Positions 295 through 14,973 of a stretch of DNA of 35,708 nucleotides are shown here, one piece after another. Both the position numbers and the translations under genes were made by a program. This DNA comes from Aequorivita sp. (GTDB taxonomy: Bacteria > Bacteroidota > Bacteroidia > Flavobacteriales > Flavobacteriaceae). The notes beneath the pieces were generated by a model that had not been told where the DNA came from, searched no databases, and was given only the letters and a program-made list of their open reading frames with translations. The stretch spans positions 1 through 35,708 of the forward strand of contig JAPKFY010000048.1 in assembly GCA_026646335.1 (NCBI GenBank). Reading direction: 5' to 3'. The number at the start of each line of letters is the position of its first letter. Position 1 is the stretch's first letter.

Positions 295-960
295 TTAAAT
301 ACATTTCATCACTTTTTCAACCATTAAATCACATTTATGATTGCCAAATTCAAAGATGGAAGCGTCATGGGTTGTTTTGAAGAGTTCTTCCTTTAGTAAA
401 TTTTTGGCGCGGTGTAGGCGCACTTTCACATTGCTATCGGTGAGTTTCAGACACGCTGCGATCTCTGGATTACTCAAGCCTTCCACTTGCTGAAGCACAA
501 AAACTACTCTGTATTTTTCTGGAAGACGGTCCACAGCTTGTTCCACCAAAGCACGGGTTTCAGTCTTTATGGTTTGTTTTTCTGGATTCATATTGTTTGT
601 ATCTGGCAGTTGAAAAACGTTTTCCAAACTTTCCGTTTTTCCGTAATTTGTTACTAGCCTTTTATTTTTTCGTATATGCTGCAATGCTTCATTAATGGCT
701 ATTCTGATAAGCCAAGTGGAAAAGGAAGATTGATTGTTGAATTGTTGCAATTTAAGATATGCCTTTACATAAGCATCCTGCATAATATCCCGAACATCAT
801 CTTCGGAATGGATATAACTTCTTATTACTCTAAAAAGACGTTGGTTATATCTTCGCAACAAAATCTCGAAAAGTTCCTTCTCACCTTCCAACACACGTTC
901 CACTACTTTGGAATCGGACAATTTGGTCAAGGCGAATCTGTCTGGTTGTATCGCATTCAT
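295..960 (-). CDS. RNA polymerase sigma factor, ECF subfamily
   Basis: This is an extracytoplasmic-function sigma factor of 221 residues that would direct core RNA polymerase to a small regulon. Region 2 spans about residues 28-101: a DDVRDIMQDAYVKAY helix for the -10, then STWLIRIAINEALQHIRKNKR. Region 4 spans about 144-193, LPEKYRVVFVLQQVEG followed by a helix-turn-helix with SNPEIAACL and NVKVRLHRAK. A tail of about 25 residues containing HKCD follows, as in some Bacteroidota ECF factors. ATG at 960 is the first start in frame. No anti-sigma gene lies beside it. The only divergent partner is the DoxX-like membrane protein at 1066, and both genes sit behind identical mirrored promoter-like elements, which suggests autoregulation and a shared regulon. 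Confidence 0.93.
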   Translation of the reverse strand: MNAIQPDRFALTKLSDSKVVERVLEGEKELFEILLRRYNQRLFRVIRSYIHSEDDVRDIMQDAYVKAYLKLQQFNNQSSFSTWLIRIAINEALQHIRKNKRLVTNYGKTESLENVFQLPDTNNMNPEKQTIKTETRALVEQAVDRLPEKYRVVFVLQQVEGLSNPEIAACLKLTDSNVKVRLHRAKNLLKEELFKTTHDASIFEFGNHKCDLMVEKVMKCI

Positions 961-974
961 ATTGTGTTTTTCTT

Positions 975-1040
975 TTTAGATGCCATAACTCGTTTAAAGT
1001 TACAAATTTTTGTAACCGTTGTTTTTTAAAAACATCTAAA
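975..1040. promoter_or_regulatory. Mirror-image divergent ECF-type promoters sharing an 18-bp palindrome
   Basis: A perfect palindrome, GTTACAAATTTTTGTAAC, lies at 999-1016. Reading outward to the right, TTTGTAAC (1009-1016) is followed after exactly 16 bases by CATCTAAA (1033-1040). Reading outward to the left on the minus strand, the same TTTGTAAC (1006-999) is followed after exactly 16 bases by the same CATCTAAA (982-975). GTAAC-like -35 boxes with a -10 box about 16 bases away are typical of ECF promoters. This geometry fits two back-to-back promoters read by the same ECF sigma factor, one for the sigma gene itself and one for the 1066 gene. It is not the housekeeping TAnnTTTG pattern. 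Confidence 0.7.
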
Positions 1041-1065
1041 CCATAGAACTTAAAATAAAAAAACT

Positions 1066-1458
1066 ATGACAACAGTAGCAAACAGTATCGAAATCAACAA
1101 AATACAAACCCTTATGAAATACGTCTTTGTGATTGTGCCAATTGTGGCGGGTCTGGACAAATTTTTTAACATTTTAGTGCAATGGGATACTTATCTTGCA
1201 CCTTCCACTTTAGAGGCGCTTCCGTTTAGCGGAGCAACATTTATGATGATTGTTGGCGTAATAGAGATTATTGCCGGAGTCATCGTGCTTACCAAAACAC
1301 GGTTGGGCGCATACATCGTGTCAATCTGGTTATTGCTTATCGCCCTGAGCCTCCTATTTACTTGGCATCACCCAGACGTGGCCGTGCGCGACATAGTGAT
1401 GGCCATATCTGCATTTGTTTTGGCAAAGTTGAGCGCTCCTGAAATTAAAACATACTAA
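1066..1458 (+). CDS. Four-helix DoxX-like inner-membrane protein
   Basis: A 130-residue hydrophobic protein with four predicted membrane helices at about residues 16-35, 55-77, 81-99 and 107-125. The first helix contains the FVIVPIVAGLDKFFNIL motif seen in small DoxX/DUF417-like proteins of flavobacteria. The reaction is unknown; the wider DoxX family is linked to thiosulfate or quinone-related redox and stress protection, but nothing here fixes a substrate. ATG at 1066 follows an A-rich leader 25 bases after the CATCTAAA element at 1040. The gene is divergent from the ECF sigma gene and is its most likely target. A strong terminator (1492-1536) follows, so it is probably transcribed alone. 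Confidence 0.7.
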   Translation: MTTVANSIEINKIQTLMKYVFVIVPIVAGLDKFFNILVQWDTYLAPSTLEALPFSGATFMMIVGVIEIIAGVIVLTKTRLGAYIVSIWLLLIALSLLFTWHHPDVAVRDIVMAISAFVLAKLSAPEIKTY

Positions 1459-1491
1459 TTCCCTCATTCCAATTTTCCTTTGTGTTTTTAA

Positions 1492-1536
1492 AATCTTCTC
1501 TATCGTTTTAAATTGCGGTAGGGAAGATTCTTTTTT
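1492..1536 (+). terminator. Rho-independent terminator after the DoxX-like gene
   Basis: A 14-bp stem pairs 1492-1505 with 1516-1529, including two G-U pairs, around a 10-base loop (1506-1515). It is followed by a C and six T residues. It sits 33 bases after the stop codon at 1458 and separates that gene from the kinase operon. Confidence 0.8.
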
Positions 1537-1682
1537 AACGTAATCTAAGTTGGCTTTAATACTGAATAAATGATTTCGGATCCCATCAGAAATGGAAAAT
1601 ATATTCAAATAAATGTCCAATTATAGTCATAGAAAAAAAATAATCGTAAATTTAGAATCAACAAACAACCCATTTTCATAAA

Positions 1683-3560
1683 ATGAAACGACTATTACTC
1701 AGTGTAGTATTAGCTTGCGTTTCGTGGAGTAGTCTTCCTCAAACTCCTTCTCAGACACAAGAAGACACGCTTAAAAGTTCCACTTTGGATATAGTTCCAA
1801 TAGTTGAAGACACCCTACAGCAATACGAAAACTTCAAAAAAACAATTCAGCTTTCCCAAAAAAACAAGGATTTTAATACCCTTGGTGAAGCTTACATCGG
1901 TTTGGCAAAATGGCACGAAGACCATACAGTGTTAGATTCATCTATAGTTTATCTTCAAAAGGCTATTGCTGTTTATAAGAAGCAAGACGAGTCAAAATCT
2001 TTGGCAAATACCTACCTTTTATTAGTAGCTAATTACAGTGGTACAGCAGAATATGATAAAGCTTCAGAAGCCGTTTATAAAGCGCTAGCCATTTATGAAG
2101 AAATTGGCGACCAACGTGGTGTTGCGCAATCTTATACGAAAATAAGTGACTTGCTATATTATTCTGACAGTTATGCCGAAGGCGCGGAATATTGTAAAAA
2201 AGCAATCGCCATCCAAGAAAAATACGGCTATGAGGAAGACATGGCGCTCTCCTATCGCCGACTTGCTGAAAACCAGCTTTTTTTAAGCAATCTGGAAGAA
2301 AGCTTGGCAAGCATGAATCGGGCCATCGATTTATACAAAAAAGTAGGTATCATCGATGCCCCACTTTTGGCCTGTTACAATGGCCGCGGGAATATTTATA
2401 AATATATGGAACGCTATGACGAAGCCATTGCCGACTACAACAGGTGTTATGAGGGCGCAAAAGAGATAGGGCTGGAACGTTACATGATGCCGCCTACCGC
2501 CAATATAGGCCACGTTTATATTCTACAAGGAAAATATGCCGAAGCCCTACCCTACAACCTTAAGGCCATAGAAATTATGAAACGCATTGGCAACACCAAA
2601 AACCTTTGGGAAAACTATATGCATGTTTCCAATATTTACAGCAAATTGGGCGATTATAAAAATGCCTTGGAATATCACGAGCTATATGAACAAGGCCATT
2701 CGGAATACCTCAACACCATTATTGCGCGGAAGGATAGCGAACTGCAAGTAAAATATGAAACGGCGCAAAAGGATATGGAAATTCTGGACCAAGAGGCAAA
2801 AATTTCGCAACAGCGAAAAACACAAATCCTCTATATTGGCATAGCCGGATTGCTTACCGTTATTCTCTTCGGAATGTATTTTACATTGAAGAACATTCGC
2901 AAAAAACGAAAGGCCCTTTCCCTATTGAATGTAGAACTGGATGCCAAAAACAAACAGAACGAACTGCTATTAAAAGAAATTCATCACCGCGTAAAGAACA
3001 ACCTGGAAATGGTGAAAAGTCTTATCGCTTTACAATCGTCTAAACTGGAGGATGGTGCCAGTAAAGAAGCCATGCTAGCCAGCCAAAATCGCGTTCAGAG
3101 TATGGGCATTATTCATCAAAAATTGTATCAAGGAACCAATCTAGGCGCAATTGAAATGAAGGATTATTTCGTGAATTTAGGGGAAGGCATTTTAGATACT
3201 TTCAATGCGGAAGACAAAGTGAAAATTGAATGTGCGATGGACGACCTCAACCTGGACGTAGATACAGCAGTACCCATCGGACTTATTGTGAACGAGCTTT
3301 TAACCAATTCCCTAAAATACGCTTTCCCAGACGGGGTAAAGGGGCAGATTAACATTAGCCTTACCCAAAGAGATAACGATCTTTTACTGAAAGTTTCAGA
3401 CAACGGCATCGGTAAAACGGAAGGTTCAAAACCAAAAGGGACCGGTTTTGGCACGCAACTGATACAGCTGCTCACCCAGCAGCTGAATGGCACTATTTCG
3501 GAAGACCACAAAAACGGAACCGCGGTGGTTTTCAACTTTAAAAATTTCAAAATAGCTTAA
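1683..3560 (+). CDS. TPR sensor histidine kinase (HisKA_2 type)
   Basis: A 625-residue membrane sensor kinase. A signal peptide (about 1-20) is followed by roughly six to seven TPR units (about 60-345) predicted to be periplasmic, a coiled coil (345-378), one membrane helix (about 382-401) and a cytoplasmic kinase. The HisKA_2 dimerisation segment has KEIHHRVKNN (431-440) with H435 the likely phosphate acceptor. The ATPase domain shows an N box NELLTNSLKYAF (537-548), G1 DNGIG (573-577) and G2 GTGFG (586-590), so the protein should be active. The TPR domain is the probable ligand- or protein-sensing part. Its stop overlaps the ATG of the response regulator by one base, so the two are translationally coupled and form a two-component pair. 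Confidence 0.93.
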   Translation: MKRLLLSVVLACVSWSSLPQTPSQTQEDTLKSSTLDIVPIVEDTLQQYENFKKTIQLSQKNKDFNTLGEAYIGLAKWHEDHTVLDSSIVYLQKAIAVYKKQDESKSLANTYLLLVANYSGTAEYDKASEAVYKALAIYEEIGDQRGVAQSYTKISDLLYYSDSYAEGAEYCKKAIAIQEKYGYEEDMALSYRRLAENQLFLSNLEESLASMNRAIDLYKKVGIIDAPLLACYNGRGNIYKYMERYDEAIADYNRCYEGAKEIGLERYMMPPTANIGHVYILQGKYAEALPYNLKAIEIMKRIGNTKNLWENYMHVSNIYSKLGDYKNALEYHELYEQGHSEYLNTIIARKDSELQVKYETAQKDMEILDQEAKISQQRKTQILYIGIAGLLTVILFGMYFTLKNIRKKRKALSLLNVELDAKNKQNELLLKEIHHRVKNNLEMVKSLIALQSSKLEDGASKEAMLASQNRVQSMGIIHQKLYQGTNLGAIEMKDYFVNLGEGILDTFNAEDKVKIECAMDDLNLDVDTAVPIGLIVNELLTNSLKYAFPDGVKGQINISLTQRDNDLLLKVSDNGIGKTEGSKPKGTGFGTQLIQLLTQQLNGTISEDHKNGTAVVFNFKNFKIA

Positions 3561-4330
3561 TGGAAAGAGCCGTAAAAATATTGATTGTGGAAGATGAAAT
3601 GGTCATTGCGGCAAATATCTCTTTACAGCTCAGCGAACTGGGTTATGAAGTAACGGGAATTTTGCCCCGCGGGGAAGAAGCCCTTGCGCACGTAAGGGTA
3701 GAAATACCAGATATTGTCTTGATGGATATTCAGCTAAAGGGAAAGATGGACGGGATTGAAACTGCACAGCTAATGCAAGTTGATTACAACATACCCGTAA
3801 TTTATCTCACCGCAAATACCGATGATGCGCACTTTAACCGCGCCAAAGAAACACATCCATATGCCTTCATTTCTAAACCCTTCAAAAAGCTGGATCTGCA
3901 ACGCGCCATTGAACTTACGGTTGAAAGAATACTATTGGAAAAATCTCCAGAAAATTTCGAAAAAGAAAATGGTTCTGAATCCAACACTTTAAATGGAAAT
4001 ACCCCAGATTTCATTTTGAACGACCGGATTTTTATTCGGCATAATGAAAAAATGCTGAAAATAGACATCCAGGACATTCTTTACATTGAAGCAGACCGCA
4101 ATTATTGTCGTATTTTTTCACAAGGCCGTGAATATCTTTTGGTAATGACCTTAAAGGACCTTGACGAAAAACTTCCGCAGAAACATTTCCTTAGAATTCA
4201 CCGAAGCTACATCATCAATCTTTCCCAAATAGACGAAGTGGCGGGCACACACGTGGTCATTTCAAAAAAAGCAATCCCGATGAGCAAAGCCACGCGGGCG
4301 GAACTTCTTAAGCGGCTGCAAACCATTTAA
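3560..4330 (+). CDS. Response regulator with LytTR DNA-binding domain
   Basis: A 256-residue regulator and partner of the overlapping kinase. The receiver domain (about 5-122) has the acidic pair E11-D12, phospho-acceptor D56 in IVLMDIQ, T84 in YLTAN and K106 in SKPF, so all key residues are present. A linker leads to a LytTR domain (about 150-255) with IEADRNYCRIF and HRSYIINLSQI. LytTR proteins bind imperfect direct repeats upstream of their targets. No convincing pair was found upstream of the next genes, so the regulon is unknown. The plus-strand cluster that follows is a reasonable but unproven target. Confidence 0.94.
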   Translation: MERAVKILIVEDEMVIAANISLQLSELGYEVTGILPRGEEALAHVRVEIPDIVLMDIQLKGKMDGIETAQLMQVDYNIPVIYLTANTDDAHFNRAKETHPYAFISKPFKKLDLQRAIELTVERILLEKSPENFEKENGSESNTLNGNTPDFILNDRIFIRHNEKMLKIDIQDILYIEADRNYCRIFSQGREYLLVMTLKDLDEKLPQKHFLRIHRSYIINLSQIDEVAGTHVVISKKAIPMSKATRAELLKRLQTI

Positions 4331-4374
4331 CAATTCAGAATTAATTTCCCCTTCGGCAAATAAAAACCCTTCTT

Positions 4375-4397
4375 CGGACAGTTTTAAAGGCTGTTCG
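4375..4397 (+). terminator. Possible weak terminator hairpin after the response regulator
   Basis: A 7-bp stem with one G-U pair (4375-4381 with 4391-4397) encloses a 9-base loop, 44 bases after the regulator stop. No T-run follows immediately; a TTTTT tract comes about ten bases later. It may end the two-component operon but is weak. Confidence 0.35.
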
Positions 4398-4482
4398 TCC
4401 TAAATCGTTTTTCCTTCTTCTTGATTGTCTGTTACTTAGACCCACTCCCCACAACATTTGTTTCACAATTAAACTTTCAATT

Positions 4483-4713
4483 ATGAAAACGATACTTTTT
4501 ATGGGGTTTGCAACGGCTCTTTCATTAACCACTTGCGAACAAGACGAATACTACGCACACCCTTAACCAGAACTAATAACTCATAACCCAGTAAATGAGG
4601 CCTATTATATGAAGGAAAGAATCCAGAAAGAGATCGGTTTTTCGGATTGCCTAAAAATTACCACAGACTTGAACCAATTAAAAACACACTCAAAAAACAT
4701 CGCAAAAAATTAA
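4483..4713 (+). pseudogene. Small lipoprotein gene interrupted by an in-frame stop
   Basis: ATG at 4483 opens a 27-codon frame with a lipoprotein-like start (MKTILFMGFATALSLTTC, then EQDEYY) that ends at TAA 4564-4566. The same frame then stays open for 48 more codons to TAA 4711-4713 and reads as ordinary protein (for example EAYYMKERIQKEIGF). The signal peptide resembles that of the next gene at 4768, so this may be a decayed, shortened paralogue. It could also be a genuine 27-residue lipopeptide followed by chance open sequence. It occupies most of the 437-base gap between 4330 and 4768. Confidence 0.4.
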
Positions 4714-4767
4714 CCGTGAAATTTAATCAGAATAGCATACTACTAATCAATTTAAACATTCAAAATC

Positions 4768-5295
4768 ATGAAAAAACTAATCTTTTTAGGACTTGCAATA
4801 GTCCTTTCGTTAAATGCCTGTCAGCAACAGGAAAAGCGTTACACCCAGCAATCGCCAGAAATAGACACTTATAAAAAAGTGATTGAAGCTTATGATAAGC
4901 AAGATTGGGAAGCAATGGCTAGCCATTATGCAGATACCGCAAAAATAATGAATAATGTAACAGAAAAGGAAGCTCAAACCCTAGCAGAATTGGTTGCTAA
5001 TGATAAAGAAGACGCCGCTCTCTTTTCAAGTTGGGAATATGTAGACGACCAATCTGAATATGAAATGGTTCTAGACGACAAAGGCAAAACATATGTAAAC
5101 TTTTGGGGACTCTGGAAAGGAACCCTAATAGCCAATAATAAAACGTATACCATACCAACTCACATTACTGCCCAATTTGTTGATGGCAAAATAGTAAAAG
5201 AGTTTGGCTATTGGGATCTTTCAAAAATTATGCTGGATTTACAAGCAATGCAACACGCAGACACAACAGCTGTGGGTAATACAAAAAATCTATAA
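4768..5295 (+). CDS. NTF2/SnoaL-like lipoprotein
   Basis: A 175-residue lipoprotein with a signal peptide and lipobox ending at C18 (LSLNAC). The mature part begins EIDTYKKVIEAYDKQDWEAMASHYAD, the usual first helix of NTF2/SnoaL-like cone-barrel domains, and later has FWGLWKG and a FVDGKIVKEFGYWD strand pair as in SnoaL-like ester-cyclase relatives. Such domains bind or cyclise small hydrophobic molecules; no substrate can be read from the sequence. It lies 8 bases before the alcohol dehydrogenase and is the first intact gene of the long plus-strand cluster. It is likely anchored on the periplasmic face of a membrane. Confidence 0.75.
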   Translation: MKKLIFLGLAIVLSLNACQQQEKRYTQQSPEIDTYKKVIEAYDKQDWEAMASHYADTAKIMNNVTEKEAQTLAELVANDKEDAALFSSWEYVDDQSEYEMVLDDKGKTYVNFWGLWKGTLIANNKTYTIPTHITAQFVDGKIVKEFGYWDLSKIMLDLQAMQHADTTAVGNTKNL

Positions 5296-5303
5296 ATTAA
5301 ATA

Positions 5304-6320
5304 ATGAAACAGATGAAAGTTAACGGATACGCAGCCAGTGGGCCAAAAGCAAAACTAACGCCTTATTCTTATGAATTAGGAGCGATAGGTCCTGAACAAG
5401 TTGATATTAAAGTTTCCTATTGTGGCATTTGTCATTCAGATTTAAGTATGATAAATAATGAATGGGGAATGACTCAATATCCCATTGTTCCTGGCCACGA
5501 AATAATAGGAGAAGTAATAGCTGCAGGTAATGCGGTTAAAAATGTGAAGGTTGGAGATAAAGTAGGATTGGGGTGGATGTCATCTTCCTGCATGAGTTGC
5601 GAGCAATGTATGGACGGGCACCACCACCTCTGCTCTCAAAGTGAAGCTACCATTGTAGGTAGAAACGGTGGATTTGCCGATTATGTTCGTGGGCATTGGT
5701 CCTGGGCCATTCCGCTTCCAGCTGCTATAGATATGAGTAAAGCAGGGCCCCTGCTATGTGGAGGGATTACAGTTTTCAACCCAATAATATTAGCTGGTGT
5801 AAAACCCACAGATAAGGTTGGCGTCATCGGAATTGGAGGATTAGGGCATATGGCTATCAAGTTCTTAAAACATTGGGGATGTGAAGTGATTGCCTATAGC
5901 TCAAACCCAGATAAAAAGAAGGAAATCTTAAATATGGGAGCCAGCCAAGTAATCAATTCAACAGCTCCTGAAGAATTAGAACGCATCGCTGGAAAACTAA
6001 ATTTTATTCTCAATACCACTAATGTAACATTGGATTGGAGTTCGTATTTGACCGCATTGGCACCGAAAGGAAAATTTCATACCGTAGGAGCTGTATTGGA
6101 GCCAATGGCAATTCCTGCATTCAGTTTGATGTTGGGCGAAAAAACAGTTGGAGGAAGCCCGATAGGCAGTCCTGCATTAACTAAAACCATGCTAGATTTT
6201 TGTGTAAGACACAATATTTATCCAGATGTTGAGGAATTCCCGATGGCAAAAGTAAATGAAGCAATTGAACACCTAGAAAACGGGAAAGCGCGATTTAGGA
6301 TAGTATTGAAAAATAAATAA
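5304..6320 (+). CDS. Zinc-dependent alcohol dehydrogenase, NAD(P)(H)-dependent
   Basis: A 338-residue cytoplasmic medium-chain dehydrogenase of the cinnamyl-alcohol/YahK-like branch, interconverting alcohols and aldehydes with NAD(P)(H). Catalytic zinc residues are C40 in CGICHSD and H65-E66 in PGHE. The structural zinc site is complete with C96, C99, C102 and C110. The Rossmann motif GIGGLGH lies at about 176-182. Length is normal for the group. No export signal is present, unlike the lipoprotein 8 bases upstream, with which it is probably co-transcribed. The physiological substrate is unknown; related enzymes reduce a broad range of aldehydes. Confidence 0.92.
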   Translation: MKQMKVNGYAASGPKAKLTPYSYELGAIGPEQVDIKVSYCGICHSDLSMINNEWGMTQYPIVPGHEIIGEVIAAGNAVKNVKVGDKVGLGWMSSSCMSCEQCMDGHHHLCSQSEATIVGRNGGFADYVRGHWSWAIPLPAAIDMSKAGPLLCGGITVFNPIILAGVKPTDKVGVIGIGGLGHMAIKFLKHWGCEVIAYSSNPDKKKEILNMGASQVINSTAPEELERIAGKLNFILNTTNVTLDWSSYLTALAPKGKFHTVGAVLEPMAIPAFSLMLGEKTVGGSPIGSPALTKTMLDFCVRHNIYPDVEEFPMAKVNEAIEHLENGKARFRIVLKNK

Positions 6321-6355
6321 TTATTTAGCCAAACCCTGCCGAGAAAAACAATACC

Positions 6356-6420
6356 GGAGTAATACTCCATAAGGCCCGACAGGCATTGCTCGTGAGGAGG
6401 CAACCAACCTGTTGGGTCTT
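6356..6420. repeat. Palindromic intergenic element (two hairpins)
   Basis: A small hairpin pairs GGAGT (6356-6360) with ACTCC (6364-6368). It is followed by a 13-bp stem, 6371-6383 with 6408-6420, containing two G-U pairs and a core of the CCCGACAGG / CCTGTTGGG type, around a 24-base loop. CCTGTnGGG palindromes recur between genes in flavobacteria as dispersed repeats or terminators. No good T-run follows, so a dispersed repeat or mRNA-stabilising structure between the dehydrogenase and the epimerase gene is more likely than a simple terminator. Confidence 0.5.
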
Positions 6421-6472
6421 TATAAAAATCCCCTTTTAAATTAAAAGCCAACCGTCTTTACGGGAATACATT

Positions 6473-7411
6473 ATGAAAACAGTAGGAATAATAGGAGGTT
6501 CAGGCTTTATAGGAAGCCACACAACTCATATATTTTTAAAAGAAGGATACAACGTAAAGGTATCTGTTACCGATATTAAAAAGAGTGAAAAATACCAACA
6601 TCTTTTCAATCTTGAAAATACGGACAACCTCAACATAAGTGCGGTAAGAGTAGAAGATTTGGGAACGTTGAAAGATTTTATCAGCGATTGCGAAATTGTT
6701 GTACACGGCGGCACGCCCTTTCAACTGGATGTAAAAGATCCGCAAACAGAACTTTTTGATCCTACAATTAAGGGAACGGAAAATTTTTTGAAAGCAATAA
6801 GCGAAACTCCTTCAATTGAAAAGGTTGTTTTAATTGCTTCGGTGGCAGCTTATAATACCAATTTTCCCCTTCCGGCAGGAAGTAAAAACCCGAATGATAC
6901 TTTCAACGAAAAGGATACCCCTTTTATGAGCGAGGAAAGCCATCCGTATGCACAGGCAAAATTTCTTGCCAATCAAACGGTGGAAAAATTTATAAAGGAA
7001 AACCCAAAGCTTTCTTTTGAAATCATTTCAGTCTCACCGGTTGGGGTTATGGGGAAATCTTTATCAAATAGGGAAGATTCAACTTCAACGGGGCTGCAAT
7101 TTCTATTTAAAAACAAAATTGCCCCCAATCCATTTGTGCAAATGCTCTATGACATCAATGCGGAAATGGCCATAGTAGATGTTAGGGATGTTGCGGAAGC
7201 CATCTTCAAAGCTGCTACGACTTCCGGTTTGCACGGTAAAAACTATTTGTTGAGCAGCGAAACCTATTCGGTTAGCGACATGAACCTGATGCTTAACCAC
7301 CAAGCCCCAAAAAACAAAGCAAGTGTAGTTTATGAAAACACTTTGGCAATCAACGATTTGGGAATGAAATTCAGACCTGTTCAAGAAACATTAAACAATT
7401 ATTCAAAGTAA
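6473..7411 (+). CDS. NAD-dependent epimerase / dihydroflavonol-reductase-like protein
   Basis: A 312-residue extended short-chain dehydrogenase. The dinucleotide motif GGSGFIGS is at 8-15. The catalytic set is S123 (VLIASVAAY) with Y159 and K163 (YAQAK). The C-terminal half has the VDVRDVAEAIFKA motif typical of the dihydroflavonol 4-reductase/aldehyde-reductase-like group, which reduces carbonyls on varied small molecules with NADPH. It is cytoplasmic, with no signal. It sits after the palindromic element and 37 bases before the next NTF2-like gene, inside the same plus-strand series. The substrate is unknown. Confidence 0.85.
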   Translation: MKTVGIIGGSGFIGSHTTHIFLKEGYNVKVSVTDIKKSEKYQHLFNLENTDNLNISAVRVEDLGTLKDFISDCEIVVHGGTPFQLDVKDPQTELFDPTIKGTENFLKAISETPSIEKVVLIASVAAYNTNFPLPAGSKNPNDTFNEKDTPFMSEESHPYAQAKFLANQTVEKFIKENPKLSFEIISVSPVGVMGKSLSNREDSTSTGLQFLFKNKIAPNPFVQMLYDINAEMAIVDVRDVAEAIFKAATTSGLHGKNYLLSSETYSVSDMNLMLNHQAPKNKASVVYENTLAINDLGMKFRPVQETLNNYSK

Positions 7412-7448
7412 AATCAAACAGAATATTAACCAAGTAAATACATAAACA

Positions 7449-8435
7449 ATGAACAATTCAATGAAAAATCACGAACACCAAACAAACAGTATTTGGACCG
7501 TGAGTAGAACAACAATTCTATCGGTAATGATGCTAATTGCTTGCATTACCTATTCGCAAAAAAAGAATGGAACTATTTACATAGACCATCCGGCAATTAC
7601 CACAGTGGAGGCTATGACACAAGCTTTTGTTAGTGGAGATTCAGACAAGGTAGCCAGTTATCTGGCCGATGATTTTAAGGCCTACAATGGCACGAGTACC
7701 GACCCAAATGACAAGGGGCAAGACAAAGAAAGCTTTTCAAAATCTGCAAAAGGTTGGAATGACGCTCTTGATTATTTTTCAATAAGCCGCTCCCCGGGTG
7801 CCTATCCTGATGCATTGGAATACAAAGACGACAACCAAAAAGATGTGATGTGGGTACAGACTTGGGAAGACATGAAAGGTGTTCACAAAAAAACAGGTGT
7901 TAAGGTAAACCAACCTATGCACCGATTATTCATAGTGAATAAAAACAATAAAATACAAACCATTATAACCTATAGCAACGCCAATATTGGTTCGGAAATT
8001 CGCCAAAGTTATTCCGACAGGAAAAATGGTACTATCTACAACCATCACGAAAATATAAACACCGTTCGTAAAATGATTTATGCCATAGAGTTCAATGATT
8101 GGGACAAAGTGTACAGTTTTTATGATAAAGATGTACGGTTCATAGATTCCAGCTCACCCACAATGGAAAGCATTTCATTAACGGAACAAAAAGCCTTAGA
8201 CAAAAAGATTTTAGAAAAATATGATGTTGCCAGCATTGATATGGTAGGTTATCCTGATTATTTGCATTACGAAATGGGAGATCAGGGTTTAGTACAATCT
8301 TGGTGGAATATAAATTTTGTTCGCAAATCTGATAAAAAAGCAATTGTACTGCCCATATTTTATATTATGGATTTCAATAATGAAGGAAAAATAACTTCGG
8401 AAACGGCCTATTACAATGCAAAAATATTGGATTAG
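7449..8435 (+). CDS. Exported protein with two tandem NTF2/SnoaL-like domains
   Basis: A 328-residue protein whose N-terminus has a long polar lead (about 24 residues), then a hydrophobic stretch TTILSVMMLIACITYSQ that reads as a signal peptide. A later internal start is therefore possible. The mature protein is an internal duplication. One copy starts KKNGTIYIDHPAITTVEAM (about 38) and the second RKNGTIYNHHENINTVRKM (about 194), each followed by a helix with DxDKV and a conserved tryptophan-rich strand (VQTWEDM, VQSWWNI). Both halves match the NTF2-like cone fold used by SnoaL-type cyclases and small-ligand binders. It is predicted to be periplasmic. Catalytic residues cannot be assigned. 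Confidence 0.7.
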   Translation: MNNSMKNHEHQTNSIWTVSRTTILSVMMLIACITYSQKKNGTIYIDHPAITTVEAMTQAFVSGDSDKVASYLADDFKAYNGTSTDPNDKGQDKESFSKSAKGWNDALDYFSISRSPGAYPDALEYKDDNQKDVMWVQTWEDMKGVHKKTGVKVNQPMHRLFIVNKNNKIQTIITYSNANIGSEIRQSYSDRKNGTIYNHHENINTVRKMIYAIEFNDWDKVYSFYDKDVRFIDSSSPTMESISLTEQKALDKKILEKYDVASIDMVGYPDYLHYEMGDQGLVQSWWNINFVRKSDKKAIVLPIFYIMDFNNEGKITSETAYYNAKILD

Positions 8436-8501
8436 ACTCCCCGAGTTATTCACTATAAACTCCCCAGTTAATTGAAAAAAACAATTCAATACTAATCAGT
8501 T

Positions 8502-8516
8502 TCCGCCCAAGGCGGA
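8502..8516. repeat. Short GC-rich hairpin between genes
   Basis: TCCGCC (8502-8507) pairs with GGCGGA (8511-8516) across a CAA loop, 17 bases before the ATG at 8534. It stands out in AT-rich surroundings. GGCGGA hairpins are common scattered elements in this phylum. It could modulate translation or message stability of the 8534 gene. Confidence 0.4.
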
Positions 8517-8533
8517 GACACAAAATAAAAATC

Positions 8534-9301
8534 ATGAGGAAATTAATTTTTACAATGCTTTTGTTGCCACTATTGGCAATATCGCAAAACAGTACCGAAT
8601 ACGGCGTATTCGAAAATGCAGTATTAACGCCAAATCCCGCTCAAGTAACGCAGTTTGAGGCAGGGCTCGCGGCTCACAACAAAAAATATCACGCAGAGGG
8701 CGCTTATGGAGCAGATGTATTTTGGATTTCTAGCGGTCCCAACGCCGGCAGTTATTTATGGAGTATGGGGCCAACCCCTTGGAGCGCAATGGATAAACGG
8801 CCCGCACAAAAAGATGGCCACGATGCAGACTGGAACAACAATGTGCTAAAATACATGATGCCCGAAGGCGGCCAAACCTATTGGAAAGCAATTCCTGAAG
8901 CATCACGATTTGCAAAGAATATGACCATTAAAAACCTTGTGGTGGACATTTATGATGTAAAGCGCGGAAAAATGAAAGACGCTATGGCACTGGTAGAAAA
9001 AATACACAAGGTTTACACCGAAAAACTTCCAGGCGAGACCTACGGAATTTACACCAATGAATTTTCCAGTACTAAGGAAGGTCAGGATCTTGCCGTAGTT
9101 TCTTTTTACGAAAATATGGGAGAGTTTAGCCAAGACAGTGGGATGGACAAAAAATTTGACGAAGTGTACGGCAAAGGAAGTTGGGACCAGTTTTTAAAAG
9201 ATTGGTATAATGTTACCGACGGTAGCGAAAGTGAACTTTGGATTTTTCGTCCAGATTTGAGCGGCACAAATGGCGAGATAAATGTTGCTCCAAAAAAATA
9301 G
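8534..9301 (+). CDS. Exported protein of unknown function, probably two ABM-like halves
   Basis: A 255-residue protein with a clear signal peptide (MRKLIFTMLLLPLLAISQ). I do not recognise a named family with certainty. The mature part has two segments that each look like a ferredoxin-like dimeric alpha/beta-barrel unit. The first is around PAQVTQFEAGLAAHNKKYHA with FWISSGPNAGSYLW, and the second around VVDIYDVKRGKMKDAMALVEK with YGIYTNEFSS and LAVVSFYE. That layout recalls antibiotic-biosynthesis-monooxygenase or EthD-like proteins fused head to tail. Aromatic residues are abundant. It is predicted to be periplasmic and sits between the double NTF2 protein and a small cytoplasmic protein. Confidence 0.6.
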   Translation: MRKLIFTMLLLPLLAISQNSTEYGVFENAVLTPNPAQVTQFEAGLAAHNKKYHAEGAYGADVFWISSGPNAGSYLWSMGPTPWSAMDKRPAQKDGHDADWNNNVLKYMMPEGGQTYWKAIPEASRFAKNMTIKNLVVDIYDVKRGKMKDAMALVEKIHKVYTEKLPGETYGIYTNEFSSTKEGQDLAVVSFYENMGEFSQDSGMDKKFDEVYGKGSWDQFLKDWYNVTDGSESELWIFRPDLSGTNGEINVAPKK

Positions 9302-9382
9302 GCTTTTAAAGAAAAGTGTGCGGTGTGGCATTGTCGCGGCGTACATTTTTCACTTTAAGGTATTCATCTAAAAAACATAGTT

Positions 9383-9718
9383 ATGAAAACTGGCGAAACA
9401 CAATGGAGCAAGGAAGAACTGAAAACCTATATTTTAATCCTCTGCGCAAAGGCTGATAAAATAGAAGTCGAAGAAGAGATTACACTCATAAAAACCAAAA
9501 CATCCAACGAAGTTTTCGATAAAATGTACCGTGAATTTCAAAATAATGATGAAGATGAAAGCCTTGAAAAAATCCAGGATGCCTTGGAGCGGCACCAATA
9601 CTCTGAACTGGAGCTGTGCGAACTAAAAAATGAAATTCAGCAACTCTTTGCGGCTGACCGCAAGATACCGATGTCTGAAAGCAACCTGGGAAGGATTTTG
9701 GAGAATATTATTTATTGA
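9383..9718 (+). CDS. Small acidic protein, possibly TerB-like
   Basis: A 111-residue, mostly helical, acidic cytoplasmic protein without signal or membrane segment. The segment YILILCAKADKIEVEEEITLI is like the first helices of TerB-like domains (a helix followed by an acidic EEE stretch), and LFAADRKIPMSESNLGRIL resembles the final helix. The assignment is structural guesswork; no catalytic motif is seen. It may be a separate transcription unit, since 81 bases precede it and 56 follow it. Confidence 0.55.
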   Translation: MKTGETQWSKEELKTYILILCAKADKIEVEEEITLIKTKTSNEVFDKMYREFQNNDEDESLEKIQDALERHQYSELELCELKNEIQQLFAADRKIPMSESNLGRILENIIY

Positions 9719-9774
9719 AGTCGAACTAAGTTAAATATCAAGCTTATAACTAATAAATAAAAAATCGAAAAGAA

Positions 9775-10212
9775 ATGAATTTAAAAATACACATCCTAAT
9801 ATCTTTTCTGTTGCTGGGGATTATTTCGGTCAATGCCCAAAACAGTGACCCTCATGGCGACCATGAATCGGCTATCACTGGCATGCCTTCGGAAAAAGTA
9901 TTGATGGTTTTGGATATTGCGGTGAACGACTCACTTCAATACCAACAGTATCGTTTAAAAGTGGAACCGCTTATTGAAAAATATGGCGGAATCTATTTGG
10001 TGCGTTCTGGCGGAATGGCCTTTGATCCAGATCCGGACCGTAAAGTGATTCCCGTGGAAGGATACTGGACCCCCTACAGATTTATTATCGTGCAATGGGA
10101 TTCCATGGAAGCGCTACAAAATTTTACAACTTCGGAAGAATATAAAACCGTGGCGAAAATTCGGGGAAATTCAGCATCTACAAAATCGATTATTGTAAGG
10201 AAATATAATTGA
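9775..10212 (+). CDS. Exported DUF1330-like protein
   Basis: A 145-residue protein with a signal peptide cleaved after about residue 21 (SVNAQ) and a DUF1330-like dimeric alpha/beta-barrel domain from about residue 40. The hallmarks are DSLQYQQYRLKVEPLIEKYGG, YLVRSGG and FIIVQWDSMEALQNF. DUF1330 proteins are usually cytoplasmic and about 95 residues long; an exported version is less usual. The linker contains a small histidine cluster (DPHGDHES), which might bind metal. No reaction is established for the family. Confidence 0.75.
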   Translation: MNLKIHILISFLLLGIISVNAQNSDPHGDHESAITGMPSEKVLMVLDIAVNDSLQYQQYRLKVEPLIEKYGGIYLVRSGGMAFDPDPDRKVIPVEGYWTPYRFIIVQWDSMEALQNFTTSEEYKTVAKIRGNSASTKSIIVRKYN

Positions 10213-10270
10213 AACAGAAAAAGGATAAAAACTTAATTTATAATTCAGCAGAATTCAAATCATTACAAAA

Positions 10271-11206
10271 ATGGCAACAACTTTTAATTATTGTTTTTTG
10301 ATAAGCCTTGCCTTCAGCTTGATGAATATAAATCATGCTATTGGTCAAAATTCCGATGCAATGAAAAAAACACAAGCAACAAACAAAACAGTGAAAATTT
10401 ACACCCAAGACGAAGCGGATGTAAAAGCAACCATTGAACAATTTCTAATTGTGGCAGGTAATTACAATTTGGATGCCATGGCAAATATGATGTCAGACAA
10501 AGCAAGTCTCGCAATCGCAAGATTAAGGGACGGCAAATGGACTACCGAAACCATGTTAATAAGTGAATATTTTGAAGCGGCAAAAAACAGAACAAATCGC
10601 CCTTATTTTGAACCCGTAAAAGAATACACAATCCACCTAAGCGATGGACATTTGGCATTTGTAAAAGCCGATGCTGTTTTACATGCTTTTGGAGTTCCAC
10701 TTTTGAACAACATCGATTATTTCACATTGATAAAGGAAAACGAGGTTTGGAAGTTTATCAATATTTCGTTCACCTCAACCCGTATTCCAGAAGCTGAAAG
10801 AATTTACGACCCAATCGTATTCGCTAAGAGTTATGCACAGGCTTGGTGTAGTCAAAATCCTGATTTTGTCGCTTTGTTTTATGCCGAAGATGGTTCATTG
10901 AACATTAATAACGGTACTCCCGCTGTTGGCAGGACAGCCATTACCCAATCTGCCAAAGCCTTTATGGATGCCTTTCCGGATGATATGATCGTTGCTTTTG
11001 ACAAGTTGGTAAAAACCCCAAAAGGCACTGAATTCCATTGGACGTTAACAGGAACCAACACAGGCCCCAACGGAACAGGAAAGAAAGTAAACATAAGCGG
11101 TTTTGAACTTTGGCAGTTGGATGAGACCGGTTTAATAAAAGAATCCAAAGGCACTTTTGATGCTGAAGAATATAGCCGGCAGATTAAATATGGCAGTGAC
11201 AATTAA
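10271..11206 (+). CDS. Exported protein with two NTF2/SnoaL-like domains
   Basis: A 311-residue protein with a signal peptide (about 1-25, ending NHAIGQ). A first NTF2-like domain (about 48-173) begins with a helix ADVKATIEQFLIVAGNYNLD and contains the ISFTST terminal strand. A second, SnoaL-like domain (about 181-305) begins VFAKSYAQAWCSQNPDFVALFYAEDGSL and contains ALADWV-like equivalents (AITQSAKAFMDAFPD) and FELWQLDETGLI. Such domains handle small hydrophobic ligands. It lies 27 bases before the O-methyltransferase. Together with the 4768 and 7449 genes this makes five NTF2-like domains within 6.5 kb. It is predicted to be periplasmic. Confidence 0.75.
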   Translation: MATTFNYCFLISLAFSLMNINHAIGQNSDAMKKTQATNKTVKIYTQDEADVKATIEQFLIVAGNYNLDAMANMMSDKASLAIARLRDGKWTTETMLISEYFEAAKNRTNRPYFEPVKEYTIHLSDGHLAFVKADAVLHAFGVPLLNNIDYFTLIKENEVWKFINISFTSTRIPEAERIYDPIVFAKSYAQAWCSQNPDFVALFYAEDGSLNINNGTPAVGRTAITQSAKAFMDAFPDDMIVAFDKLVKTPKGTEFHWTLTGTNTGPNGTGKKVNISGFELWQLDETGLIKESKGTFDAEEYSRQIKYGSDN

Positions 11207-11233
11207 ATTTTGAACTATAAATCTAAAATATAA

Positions 11234-12277
11234 ATGGAAAACACCACCACACAAGCAACACCTGCAGCAATCCTTCAAATGGGATCAGGATTTTGGGCAT
11301 CAAAAATACTTTTGACAGCAGTAAATTTTGAACTCTTTACACATCTTGCAAAGCAACCGAATCAGTCTGCCAAGAAGCTCAAATCTTTATTGAATTTGAA
11401 ATGTACAGACAGAAACACTTACGACTTTTTGGACTGTCTGACCGGATTTGGATTTTTGAAACGGGAAGGGCTTTTGGAAACTGCGAGATATTCCAATACA
11501 ATAGACACTGATATTTTTTTAGATAAAGAAAAACCATCATATATAGGTGGAATTCTCGAAATGATGAACAATAGACTCTGGGAGTTTTGGGGAAATCTAG
11601 ATGACGGTTTAAAAACAGGCTTGATTCAGAATGAAGCCAAGGATGGCGGAAAAGGTATTTTCGATTTAGTTTACAGCAATCCCGAATTATTAAAAAGCTT
11701 CGTAAATGGTATGACTGGTGTACAGATAGGGAATTTTATGGCTTTGGCGAAAAAGTTTGATTTTTCAAACTTCAAAACCATGGTAGATGCAGGGGGTTCG
11801 GCAGGCGTACTTTCTGCGATGGTCGCCAAAAATAATTCACATATGACCTGTACCACGTTCGACCTACCTCCGTTGGAAACTATGGCGAAAGAAACTGTCC
11901 AAAAATTCCAGTTGGAAGAGCGTGTGAAAGTTTTGAGCGGTGATTTTTTCAAGAATGAACTGCCAAAAGCAGATATCGTATCCATGGGGAATATATTGCA
12001 CGATTGGGACGAAGGCACCAAAATAAACCTGATGCAAATCGCTTATGATGCGCTGCCAAAAGGAGGTGCTTTTATCGCCATTGAAAATGTTATTGACAAT
12101 GATAGAAAACAAAACGTTTTTGGAATGATGATGAGCCTGAACATGCTCATTGAAACCGGCGATGGCTTTGACTATACTTTCAACGATTTTACGAAGTGGG
12201 CCAAGATAGTAGGCTTTTCATCTACTGAATTAATGCCTTTGGCAGGTCCATCAAGCGCAGCAATTGCAATAAAATAA
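11234..12277 (+). CDS. SAM-dependent O-methyltransferase, acetylserotonin-OMT-like
   Basis: A 347-residue cytoplasmic methyltransferase of the plant-COMT/ASMT/tetracenomycin type (Methyltransf_2). The N-terminal winged-helix dimerisation domain covers about 15-95. The SAM-binding motif VDAGGSAG is at 184-191, with TTFDLPP at 207-213. The likely catalytic base is H256 in ILHDWDE, matching the conserved His-Asp pair of the family. Members methylate hydroxyl groups of phenols, polyketides or indoles. The enzyme supports the view that the cluster modifies an aromatic or polyketide-like compound, but the acceptor is unknown. Confidence 0.88.
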   Translation: MENTTTQATPAAILQMGSGFWASKILLTAVNFELFTHLAKQPNQSAKKLKSLLNLKCTDRNTYDFLDCLTGFGFLKREGLLETARYSNTIDTDIFLDKEKPSYIGGILEMMNNRLWEFWGNLDDGLKTGLIQNEAKDGGKGIFDLVYSNPELLKSFVNGMTGVQIGNFMALAKKFDFSNFKTMVDAGGSAGVLSAMVAKNNSHMTCTTFDLPPLETMAKETVQKFQLEERVKVLSGDFFKNELPKADIVSMGNILHDWDEGTKINLMQIAYDALPKGGAFIAIENVIDNDRKQNVFGMMMSLNMLIETGDGFDYTFNDFTKWAKIVGFSSTELMPLAGPSSAAIAIK

Positions 12278-12303
12278 TTTATTAACTAAACATTAAAACC
12301 AAA

Positions 12304-12825
12304 ATGAAAACAACAAAAATTACAACTATAGCACTCGCTTTGGTAGCGGTAATTTCACTATCAAGTTGCAACGAAAAAGCCAAAACAGAAACAACTGTAG
12401 AAAAACCAGAAACTACTGAAACAGTTGTAGTAAATGAAACCCCAGACTATTTTCTGCTACGCCCAGAAGTTGAAAAAGCCTATGGCTATTCGCATGCCGT
12501 AAAAATTGGCAACGACATAAAAATCTCCGGTGCCGTAAGTATGGACGATGAAGGCAACCCAACAGCCGTTGGCGATCTGGAACAACAAATGAAAAACTGT
12601 TATGCCGATTTAGAAAAAATCCTAAAGCACAACGGATGCACTTTTGACGATGTGGTAGTGGAAAACGTATTTACAACCAACATGCCCAAATTTTTGGAAG
12701 TTGCGGGCTACCGGGCAGAAATCTACAAAAAGCAATTTCCAACGGGATCCTGGCTTGGTGTAAAGGAACTTGCGATTCCCGAATTTATGATTGAAATTGA
12801 GCTGGAAGTGCATAAAGTTAAATAA
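12304..12825 (+). CDS. RidA-like (YjgF/UK114) lipoprotein lacking the catalytic arginine
   Basis: A 173-residue lipoprotein, lipobox SLSSC with C22, then a TET-rich linker and a RidA-fold domain (about 48-171). Family features are IKISGAVSMDDEG, LEQQMKNCYADLEKILKHNGC and the final IEIELEVHKVK strand. Classical RidA enzymes are cytoplasmic imine/enamine deaminases that need an arginine in a P-x-R-S motif before the last strands. Here the segment reads PTGSW, with glycine 148 in that position. The protein should therefore not be a normal RidA deaminase, and it is exported. It may bind a small ligand. It precedes the cupin gene by 31 bases, and both start MKTTK. Confidence 0.82.
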   Translation: MKTTKITTIALALVAVISLSSCNEKAKTETTVEKPETTETVVVNETPDYFLLRPEVEKAYGYSHAVKIGNDIKISGAVSMDDEGNPTAVGDLEQQMKNCYADLEKILKHNGCTFDDVVVENVFTTNMPKFLEVAGYRAEIYKKQFPTGSWLGVKELAIPEFMIEIELEVHKVK

Positions 12826-12856
12826 TATCATCAAATAAAAATTTAAAAAATATATT

Positions 12857-13309
12857 ATGAAAACAACCAAAAATTACCTGTTATTCATCGCTGTCATTTT
12901 AATTACGACGGCTTCATTTGCTCAAGAAAAATTAGATGCAAAAACCTTTGCCTATAATACCGGTAATCCAGCCGATTGGCCTGCCGAACTGGATGCGGTT
13001 ATAGCCGCACCAAATAATCATAAGATTTTACTGGAAAACGATAAAGTCAGGGTTTTGGAAGTAACACTACTACCAGGCGAAAAAGAACCACTTCACCATC
13101 ATCAATGGCCAAGTACGCTTTATATAATGAAAGCAGGCGATTTTGTAGATTATGACAGCAAAGGCAATGTGATTCTCGATTCCCGTAAGTTTTCACAACC
13201 ATCGACCTATCCATTAACCATTTTCAAAAATCCCGAAGCTCCGCATCAAGCTGAAAACTTGAGCAAAACAGAAACCATAAAGCTTATTCGGGTTGAAATG
13301 AAGCAATAA
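12857..13309 (+). CDS. Exported cupin-domain protein
   Basis: A 150-residue protein with a signal peptide (about 1-22, TASFAQ) and one cupin beta-barrel (about 58-148). Motif 1 shows VLEVTLLPGEKEPLHHHQWP with H80-H82 as metal ligands; the second motif supplies another His in PEAPHQAEN. Small exported cupins of this type usually have no assigned reaction, though the metal site would allow dioxygenase or isomerase chemistry or binding. It is placed between the RidA-like lipoprotein and the EthD gene (15 bases) and is probably co-transcribed. Expected location is the periplasm. Confidence 0.82.
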   Translation: MKTTKNYLLFIAVILITTASFAQEKLDAKTFAYNTGNPADWPAELDAVIAAPNNHKILLENDKVRVLEVTLLPGEKEPLHHHQWPSTLYIMKAGDFVDYDSKGNVILDSRKFSQPSTYPLTIFKNPEAPHQAENLSKTETIKLIRVEMKQ

Positions 13310-13324
13310 TTAAAACAAAAAATC

Positions 13325-13630
13325 ATGATCAAACTAACAGTCCTTTATGGACACCCAACAGACATTACAGCATTTGAAGATTATTATGCCAATACCCACT
13401 TGCCCAAAGCGGCAAAAATGAAAGGACATACAAAGCTTGAACTTACCAAATTTTTAAGTGCCCCAGATGGTTCAAAAGCTGCGTATTACCGAATGGCGGA
13501 ATTTTGGTTTTCCAGTCCAGAAGCCATGCAGACGACCATGGGTTCGCCTGAAGGTCAGGCAACCGCGGCAGATTTAGCCAATTTTACAACTGGTGGTGCA
13601 ACGCTTTTGGTTGGAACTGTGGATGAATAA
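13325..13630 (+). CDS. EthD-family protein
   Basis: A 101-residue cytoplasmic protein of the EthD dimeric alpha/beta-barrel family. The hallmarks are the initial strand IKLTVLYGHP, the FEDYYANTHLPKAAKMKG segment with the conserved HLP, and AEFWFSSPEAMQTTMGSPEGQA. EthD-like proteins accompany oxygenases and ether-, quinone- or polyketide-processing enzymes. Full family length, apparently intact. It starts 15 bases after the cupin stop. No partner cytochrome P450 is present in the window. Confidence 0.88.
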   Translation: MIKLTVLYGHPTDITAFEDYYANTHLPKAAKMKGHTKLELTKFLSAPDGSKAAYYRMAEFWFSSPEAMQTTMGSPEGQATAADLANFTTGGATLLVGTVDE

Positions 13631-13673
13631 TAAATTAATTTAATACCAACCAAAAACAATAAAAAAAGTCGAT

Positions 13674-14537
13674 ATGAAAACAGTACTAATTACAGGAACA
13701 AGCAAAGGTATAGGCCTTGAAACAGCATTGGCATTCGGCCGTGCAGGTTATAAAGTATTTGCCACTATGCGAAATCCGGATAAAGCAGATGATCTTAAAA
13801 AAATAATAAAAAACGAATCTTTAGATGTCAGGATCACAAAAATGGATGTAGACTCAGATCATTCTGTTCAGCAATGTATGAATGGGCTGCTCTATGAATT
13901 TAAACATATAGATGTTCTCGTCAACAATGCTGGTATTGAACGCCATGGCTCAATTGAAGAGATGTCGATGGACGATTTCCAATCCGTTATGAACACCAAT
14001 TATTTGGGAGTCCTTCGCTGTACCAAAGCCTTGTTGCCCCTAATGCGAAAAAACAAAAAAGGTTGCATAATTAATATTGCTTCAGTATCGGGTCATATTG
14101 CCAATAGTCCGTTGGGTGCTTATTCAGCAAGTAAATATGCGCTTGAAGCTGTTAGTGAAGCCTTGGCACAAGAAGTAAAACCCTTTAATATTCGGGTTGC
14201 TATCGTAGAACCCGGCATCATCAATACCGAAATGGCTGCAGATATTTCAGTAGATGGGAAATCAATTTATCCACATTCCAAACGTTTGGCAGGACTTTTT
14301 TCGGCATCGCTTCAAACGCCAACGCCACCAACACTCGTGGCAGACAAAATTTTGGAAATTTCAGAAAGCAATGATTGGAAATTAAGACATCCCGTTGGCC
14401 CAGATGCAGAACCGTTTATTGCATGGAGAGCTTCTATGACTGATGAACAATGGGTTGATTGGAATGCCACAAACGATGACGATTGGTACGAGGCCGTGCA
14501 AAATACATTTGGATTGGATGCGAGATTGACAACATGA
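13674..14537 (+). CDS. Short-chain dehydrogenase/reductase (SDR)
   Basis: A 287-residue classical SDR. The cofactor motif TGTSKGIG is at 7-14, NNAG at 84-87, the catalytic Ser is probably S137 (INIASVSG), with Y150 and K154 in YSASK. VEPGIINTEM is the usual PG motif. The C-terminal extension with many tryptophans (EQWVDWNATNDDDWYEA) is characteristic of a subgroup of about 280-residue SDRs. It would reduce or oxidise a carbonyl/alcohol with NAD(P)(H) in the cytoplasm. Together with the ADH and the epimerase-like enzyme it is the third oxidoreductase of the cluster. Confidence 0.9.
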   Translation: MKTVLITGTSKGIGLETALAFGRAGYKVFATMRNPDKADDLKKIIKNESLDVRITKMDVDSDHSVQQCMNGLLYEFKHIDVLVNNAGIERHGSIEEMSMDDFQSVMNTNYLGVLRCTKALLPLMRKNKKGCIINIASVSGHIANSPLGAYSASKYALEAVSEALAQEVKPFNIRVAIVEPGIINTEMAADISVDGKSIYPHSKRLAGLFSASLQTPTPPTLVADKILEISESNDWKLRHPVGPDAEPFIAWRASMTDEQWVDWNATNDDDWYEAVQNTFGLDARLTT

Positions 14538-14594
14538 AAACGGAGCAGCCGAAAACCGCATAGAGTAGGCAATAACAATTTAAATTACAATACA

Positions 14595-14861: not shown

Positions 14862-14973
14862 GCGAATGTTTTGAAAAGGATTGCTAAACAGCAAGACTTC
14901 CTCAAAAGAGACAGTTTCCCCATGTCATTAAAGACCAATAGATTTAAGTCCGCCAATTTTAAAAACCAAAATC

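Follow-up and report, generated by a model that had tools for sequence, protein, structure and literature searches.

Which sigma factor reads the pair of back-to-back promoters that lies between an ECF sigma factor gene and the gene of a small DoxX-like membrane protein in Aequorivita sp., and does the mirrored arrangement of the two promoters matter? We addressed these questions for a window of 35,708 nucleotides (the whole stretch of DNA that was analysed; Table 1), which we compared with the corresponding loci of relatives. ECF genes are often autoregulated, and the reading that we favour (with a probability of about 0.8, on the strength of sequence comparison) is that the window encodes an autoregulated ECF sigma factor of the NF008888 family, which has no linked anti-sigma factor and would drive both its own gene and that of the DoxX-like protein.

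The promoter pair in the window

A pattern search of the window found TTTGTAAC-N16-CATCTAAA once on each strand, at 975-1006 (minus) and 1009-1040 (plus), exactly where the initial annotation had placed two outward-facing sites of 8+16+8 bases; the pattern has no match in 100 dinucleotide shuffles of the window, and when gaps of 14-18 bases are admitted, the whole genome (G000; 3.05 Mb in 163 contigs) contains the same two sites and no others. The annotation had also described an 18-bp palindrome and an exact mirror image. Both 8-bp arms of GTTACAAATTTTTGTAAC are perfect, but its central TT is not self-complementary, so that 16 of the 18 positions are symmetric; the mirror symmetry covers the boxes and the spacing, but not the spacers, whose sequences differ.

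Table 1. Features of the sigma factor/DoxX-like locus, in window coordinates
Feature	Position	Strand	Remarks
ECF sigma factor gene	295..960	-	221 aa; sigma region 2, region 4, C-terminal extension
C-terminal extension of the sigma factor	298..378	-	residues 195-221, with C210 (codon 331-333)
-10 box CATCTAAA, sigma-gene promoter	975..982	-	core CATCTAA ends 15 bp before ATG
-35 box TTTGTAAC, sigma-gene promoter	999..1006	-	pattern search and comparison with relatives
Inverted repeat GTTACAAATTTTTGTAAC, formed by both -35 boxes	999..1016		GTTACAAA-TT-TTTGTAAC
-35 box TTTGTAAC, DoxX-like promoter	1009..1016	+	pattern search and comparison with relatives
-10 box CATCTAAA, DoxX-like promoter	1033..1040	+	core CATCTAA ends 26 bp before ATG
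DoxX-like integral membrane protein gene	1066..1458	+	130 aa; four long predicted helices; mean pLDDT 88.2

Conservation of the promoter pair in relatives

Loci were collected through relatives of the DoxX-like protein in 299 genomes of the family and in genomes of named species (68 loci), the nearest named records being a Flavobacteriaceae genome and Aequorivita species. Among the 98 loci, the ECF gene is divergent from the DoxX gene in 73; in 14 DoxX precedes a co-directional ECF gene, in three ECF precedes DoxX, in seven no ECF gene is nearby, and the remaining one is a decayed, convergent pair. After identical intergenic regions had been merged, the 73 divergent loci, among which the window counts three times, gave 61 distinct regions. 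Under a strict rule, which asks for TGTAAC (one mismatch allowed) and, at the proper distance, for TC.AA, both promoters are present in 55 of the 61; among 61 shuffled regions, single-strand sites are expected in 0.92 and 0.56, and sites on both strands in 0.005. The spacer is 16 bp in 108 of the 110 promoters and 17 bp in two. The TGTAAC boxes are 4-7 bp apart in 49 of the 55 regions (six bases in 34 pairs, five in 13, four and seven in one each); five pairs, which belong to the branch holding Chitinophagaceae, have gaps of 19-43 bp, and one (L054) has two intact promoters 295 bp apart. A wider pattern search of a larger locus set gave 63 distinct mirrors; the gap is 4-8 bp in 57 of them and 10-43 bp in the other six. 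The strict rule failed in six of the 61 regions: in four from Sphingobacteriaceae (L065, L079, L085, and L086) the spacer of the DoxX-side site is 17 bp and the ECF side lacks a strict -10 box, the decayed-looking L028 has the ECF-side site only, and L094 has neither promoter under this rule.

We compared 48 of the 49 tight pairs side by side (L015 was left out for its 17-bp spacer). The ECF side favours GTAACTTT and ATCTAA, with ATC and AA of the -10 box invariant; on the DoxX side the preference is for GTAACC or GTATCC and ATCAAA. The two promoters, called identical in the initial annotation, are so in the window, but this is not general: both 8-bp boxes are alike on the two sides in three of the 48 pairs, the window among them. 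Two mirrors (L030 and L083) flank a DoxX gene that has no adjacent ECF gene, and in L175 a mirror is present for which no partner frame was found. In the region before DoxX of L044, TTTGACAAAT-like repeats were seen by eye on either side of the mirror.

Since the compact mirror is kept in many relatives, we regard it as a real, testable regulatory module and not as a chance pattern. The annotation had named the absence of the boxes and the 16-base gap from relatives with the same gene pair as what would count against it, and both are conserved there; its picture of a sigma gene and a membrane-protein gene facing outward from one centre with two ECF-type promoters is supported. Comparison among the loci establishes the putative promoter pair, its conservation, the way it follows the gene arrangement, and its co-occurrence with the sigma family.

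Which regulator reads the sites

Across the same 299 genomes, DoxX (E <= 1e-6) and the sigma factor (E <= 1e-38) are each present in 27, and both in 25, where 2.4 would be expected. The genomes with DoxX only (G059 and G072) have weak ECF pieces beside it (L029 and L028, respectively). In these two loci the decayed ECF and DoxX genes lie side by side, as if lost jointly. Among the genomes with the ECF gene only, G231 (L189) has a tight mirror in which the partner is a small CxxCH lipoprotein-like gene, and in G251 (L195) no such promoter was found. The ECF genes of the family in L176 and L196 have a promoter of their own and no mirror. If another sigma factor of the genome read both promoters, candidates would be at hand, as the genome has 14 matches to the window sigma factor (itself included); but among these only the window sigma factor exceeds the NF008888 cut-off, and the DoxX genes track the NF008888-type family, which makes such a substitute quite improbable.

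A near-perfect 18-bp inverted repeat between divergent genes also occupies the classical position of an operator, which a separate dimeric repressor or activator could bind. An operator should keep both half-sites whatever the gene order, but among the nine loci (of 14) with DoxX then ECF in which a promoter is called, only L068 shows a second GTTACA within 50 bp. DoxX is non-divergent from ECF in 24 loci, for 17 of which the strict rule calls a promoter (TGTAAC is readable by eye in the other seven: L047, L055, L066, L090, L091, L095, and L096); 13 of the 17 keep one half and, even when one mismatch is tolerated, show no mirrored counterpart within 50 bp, so a half-site appears to work alone as a -35 box. 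The other four comprise two true mirrors (L030 and L083) and two loci with a second box, exact in L068 and with one mismatch in L088, that has no -10 box of its own. In some loci, moreover, 10-295 bp separate the halves, nearly all of which have a -10 box of their own at 16 bp, and no other regulator gene is widely common nearby (a response-regulator-like gene occurs in 10 of the 68 named loci, mostly of the Aequorivita type). The single halves and the split promoters of L054 indicate that the palindrome follows from two -35 boxes standing back to back; we reject the operator as very improbable, given the single-promoter loci and the halves lying apart.

On the same strand after the DoxX gene, positions 1683-4330 of the window hold genes for a 625-aa TPR-type sensor kinase-like protein and a 256-aa response-regulator-like protein, which are found at the same place in seven Aequorivita-type loci.

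The sigma factor and its control

The window sigma factor matches the Pfam domains Sigma70_r2 (PF04542; 60.3 bits) and Sigma70_r4_2 (PF08281; 55.1 bits), both above cut-off, and with regions 2 and 4 both present it is an ECF (group 4) sigma factor. It belongs to NF008888 (PRK11922), which it matches over residues 9-220 with 231.4 bits (cut-off 204). All 72 sigma factors of our alignment A1 (from 85 distinct ECF proteins, near-copies being omitted by hand and L028, L056, and L096 excluded) match NF008888 at E <= 1e-30, the score relative to the cut-off being known for the window protein. The C-terminal extension has the motif FEFGxxxCDxxVxxVMxxI, whose cysteine, C210, is invariant in 72 of the 72 homologues and forms one of 12 invariant columns; a helix is predicted at residues 207-220 (pLDDT about 86-88). 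A PDB fold search with the model of the sigma factor returned ordinary ECF sigma factors. A second, distant ECF-like gene (22% identity) lies on the same contig, at 30307-30780 of the window.

No anti-sigma gene follows the ECF gene of the window, where the sole same-strand frame (84 aa) is antisense to a convergent ORF at 2-265. In 49 of 78 loci there is no same-strand ORF of at least 45 aa that starts within 150 bp after the ECF stop; the frames that recur in the other 29 are FolE (6), a 69-aa protein (4), and three that resemble by eye the tRNA_anti-like protein of L160, and the motif HxxxCxxC occurs in none of the longest downstream frames of these 29 loci (one per locus). After the ECF stop of L008 lies a 146-aa frame that looks by eye like a small membrane protein, perhaps DoxX-like. 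The annotation's claim that the locus has no anti-sigma factor is thus borne out, and none recurs beside the ECF gene in relatives. The canonical ECF arrangement, with an anti-sigma gene adjoining the sigma gene, is not found here, although an anti-sigma factor might be encoded elsewhere. Because no anti-sigma factor is linked, the activity is probably set within the sigma protein.

The DoxX-like membrane protein

The name "DoxX-like" is fair in that 27 of the 62 relatives in our alignment A2 (62 of 82 DoxX proteins) match the PF07681 profile at E <= 0.01 (best E 1.5e-5), but weak for the window protein, which is unmatched at this level. The DoxX paralogue of L160 reaches 22.9 bits against a threshold of 23.6 bits for PF07681, and MauE is matched by 38 of the 62 relatives. 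A fold search with the model of the DoxX-like protein gave nothing at E <= 0.001 (the best match was NACHO/TMEM35A, E 0.17, then VKOR-like proteins), and therefore we assign it no function.

The initial annotation had proposed that the membrane protein itself could be the regulator; it might then act on the sigma factor as a membrane-bound anti-sigma factor or as its sensor. Its adjacency to the sigma gene, the close co-occurrence of the two (both in 25 and either in 29 of the 299 genomes), and the lack of any other anti-sigma candidate agree with such a role, but the features of the protein do not. It is nearly all membrane helix (hydrophobic stretches begin near residue 12), which leaves little room for a cytoplasmic sigma-binding domain; cysteine is absent from 67 of the 82 homologues; in L022, L024, L027, and L062 the DoxX gene stands apart from the sigma gene under its own promoter; and the ECF gene of L189, in a genome without a DoxX match, keeps its mirror with another partner. 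The proposal is unsupported, and we consider this role improbable. With no anti-sigma gene, a tail that carries C210, and a DoxX-like protein filled by helices, the cysteine of the C-terminal extension would be the likelier candidate for the sensor.

Candidate regulon

In the genome of the window (94.4% complete), further targets were sought with a strict pattern, which gave nine sites against seven for the reversed control, and with a loose one (up to two mismatches), which gave 67 against 100. As there is no excess of sites, only the mirror pair is detectable in this genome, and a large regulon is rejected there; a set of two targets would be an unusually small regulon. In 12 relatives with DoxX, the strict pattern gave 45 sites, including the mirrors themselves, against 10 for the reversed control, some mirrors being missed owing to the strictness of the pattern. 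Other sites, inspected in five genomes (G027, G209, G198, G102, and G019), include some upstream of genes for FolE, an FNR-like flavin reductase, a tRNA_anti-like protein, and a second ECF sigma factor, of a DUF4142 gene with a cupredoxin gene behind it, and of a gene for a RoxA/MauG-like di-haem cytochrome with one for a ResB-CcsA-like protein behind it; these Pfam names come from G027 proteins only, and the products in the other genomes were read by likeness. FolE and the reductase are also encoded near DoxX in 14 and 11 of the 68 named loci, respectively, and tight mirrors pair the ECF gene with partners other than DoxX: FolE (L161), the reductase (L022, L027, L062, and L179, where FolE comes next), and the CxxCH gene (L189). 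The mirror of L030 pairs DoxX with the reductase.

A relative of the same genus has a second ECF gene of the family in a cluster (L160, G027:C1:279500-297500, positions 1032-16160) with genes for DUF4142, cupredoxin, di-haem cytochrome, ResB-CcsA-like fusion, FolE, DoxX, and flavin reductase proteins, and with four further promoters of the same type besides that of DoxX. In the genome of the window, the di-haem cytochrome has no match (in a search run without a positive control), and the FNR-like reductase has five, of which two were inspected (on C75 and C98), with no such promoter in the scanned stretches. A relative of the flavin reductase (76% identical, with an interrupted frame) lies at about 2941-3608 of L170 (G000:C75:15500-20500). 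Since promoters of the same type precede, in relatives, genes of periplasmic electron transfer, FolE, and flavin reductase, the module probably serves to respond to redox or respiratory stress.

Does the mirror geometry matter?

The distance between the two boxes is far more constant than their distances to the genes: in the same 49 loci, the gap has a standard deviation of 0.53 bp, and the two -10-to-ATG distances have 6.5 and 9.7 bp. On the sigma tree, which was built quickly and has several weak branches, four changes suffice for the four architectural states, where the minimum is three and the shuffled mean 24.5; one branch has a single promoter before the DoxX-ECF pair. The fixed gap of 5-6 bp may thus be a functional switch, as the initial annotation had suggested, in which a bound holoenzyme excludes firing in the other direction; this reading would add to the favoured one and not replace it, with sigma and target synthesis competing and the feedback limiting itself. 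The gap of 4-7 bp in 49 of 55 pairs with its small deviation, the few changes on the tree, the 5-6 bp gaps that recur with other partners (L022, L027, L062, L161, L179, and L189), and a centre-to-centre distance of 11-12 bp, which would put the boxes on about the same face of the DNA, argue for the switch. Against it stand the gaps of 10-43 bp in six of the 63 distinct mirrors and of 295 bp in one pair, the co-directional loci that manage without a mirror, and the fact that a gap of about 6 bp would arise simply from two T-rich -35 boxes meeting head to head.

The last point suggests a gap without any function of its own, the promoters being packed as tightly as the -35 elements allow. In the 48 tight pairs, TGTAAC is preceded on either side by two positions that are T in 88-90% of cases, which would account for most of the gap, and L054 does with 295 bp between two intact promoters; but insertions are few within a deeply branching group, and the same gap is seen with other partner genes. 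Because T-rich boxes alone give about 6 bp, only insertions at one point are informative. We give this packing close to an even chance, and take the functional switch as a tentative reading with odds nearer one in three. The wide, split (L054, 295 bp), and single-promoter forms imply that the module can do without exclusion; a built-in switch by which the two promoters shut each other out is no more than plausible. The most far-reaching version, a one-polymerase two-way switch shared by several Bacteroidota families, strikes us as unlikely: here a single holoenzyme would choose between sigma factor and response, self-limiting feedback would come from the layout of the DNA rather than from an anti-sigma factor, and the sigma factor would sense directly through its invariant-cysteine tail.

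Proposed mechanism and its meaning

From these comparisons we infer recognition of the sites by the window sigma factor, autoregulation, a sensing step, and competition between the promoters. In the favoured reading, 975-1040 would be back-to-back promoters read by the sigma factor of the adjoining gene, whose holoenzyme would recognise the -35 box TTTGTAAC and, 16 bp on, a -10 box HATCHAA. Firing leftward would make more sigma factor (positive autoregulation), and firing rightward would yield the DoxX-like membrane protein, whose gene is the one target besides the sigma gene that could be detected in this genome. The activity is probably set within the sigma factor, most likely through the C-terminal helix with the invariant cysteine, by a redox or metal signal; the closeness of the -35 boxes would probably keep two polymerases from occupying the site together.

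Searches of the open-access literature found nothing, among the papers listed, on an ECF/DoxX pair or such a mirror, nor on the promoter, targets, or control of the NF008888 ECF family. The comparison defines a conserved regulatory module for this family, with a promoter motif, a candidate regulon (cytochrome c, cupredoxin, FolE, flavin reductase, and DoxX), and a candidate sensing residue that are specific enough for testing. If the geometry matters, the mirrors would be a naturally replicated positive-feedback circuit that is limited by promoter overlap and not by an anti-sigma factor.

Comparison with known systems

The closest parallel is ECF41 (Ecf41Bli and Ecf41Rsp), for which the available part of the report describes no obvious nearby anti-sigma gene, a C-terminal extension that controls activity, a conserved neighbour gene as the only detected target, the same motif before sigma factor and target, a spacer of 16 +/- 1 bp, and a divergent gene order in 55 loci (15%) (PMC3426412). 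Our system resembles it in lacking a linked anti-sigma gene and in having a C-terminal extension with a probable regulatory role, a linked putative target under the same promoter, and a spacer of about 16 bp. However, the extension of ECF41 is described as large and SnoaL-like (PMC8999054), whereas ours, about 27 residues after region 4 with one invariant cysteine, has no Pfam match to a SnoaL-like domain; the -35 box of ECF41 is TGTCAC and its partner a COE enzyme, in place of TGTAAC and a DoxX-like protein; and the accessible text on ECF41 mentions no fixed mirror (PMC3426412). Membership in ECF41 is rejected, as extension, -35 box, and partner differ. CorE and CorE2 (ECF238) are likewise described as ECF sigma factors without an anti-sigma factor and with a cysteine-bearing C-terminal extension, but theirs is a metal-sensing, cysteine-rich domain (PMC8999054, in the part consulted); C210 is the sole invariant cysteine in A1, and the window protein does not qualify as CorE-like.

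DoxX itself has been connected with ECF sigma factors elsewhere. It is mentioned in a report on Caulobacter sigmaF, an ECF sigma factor of the heavy-metal response (PMC3511200). According to the accessible part of a further report, the regulons of Haemophilus influenzae RpoE2 and Neisseria SigE include a DoxX cluster, in an oxidative-stress setting (PMC7907618). RpoE2 differs from our system in that it has a cytoplasmic anti-sigma factor of 67 aa (an anti-sigma factor is present for Neisseria SigE, too), that the DoxX cluster, judging by locus tags, is located at another place in the H. influenzae genome, and that it hardly regulates its own gene, as far as the same source describes (PMC7907618). 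What the H. influenzae and Neisseria systems and ours would have in common, in our case from comparison of sequences, is an ECF sigma factor with a DoxX-like target (PMC7907618, in part).
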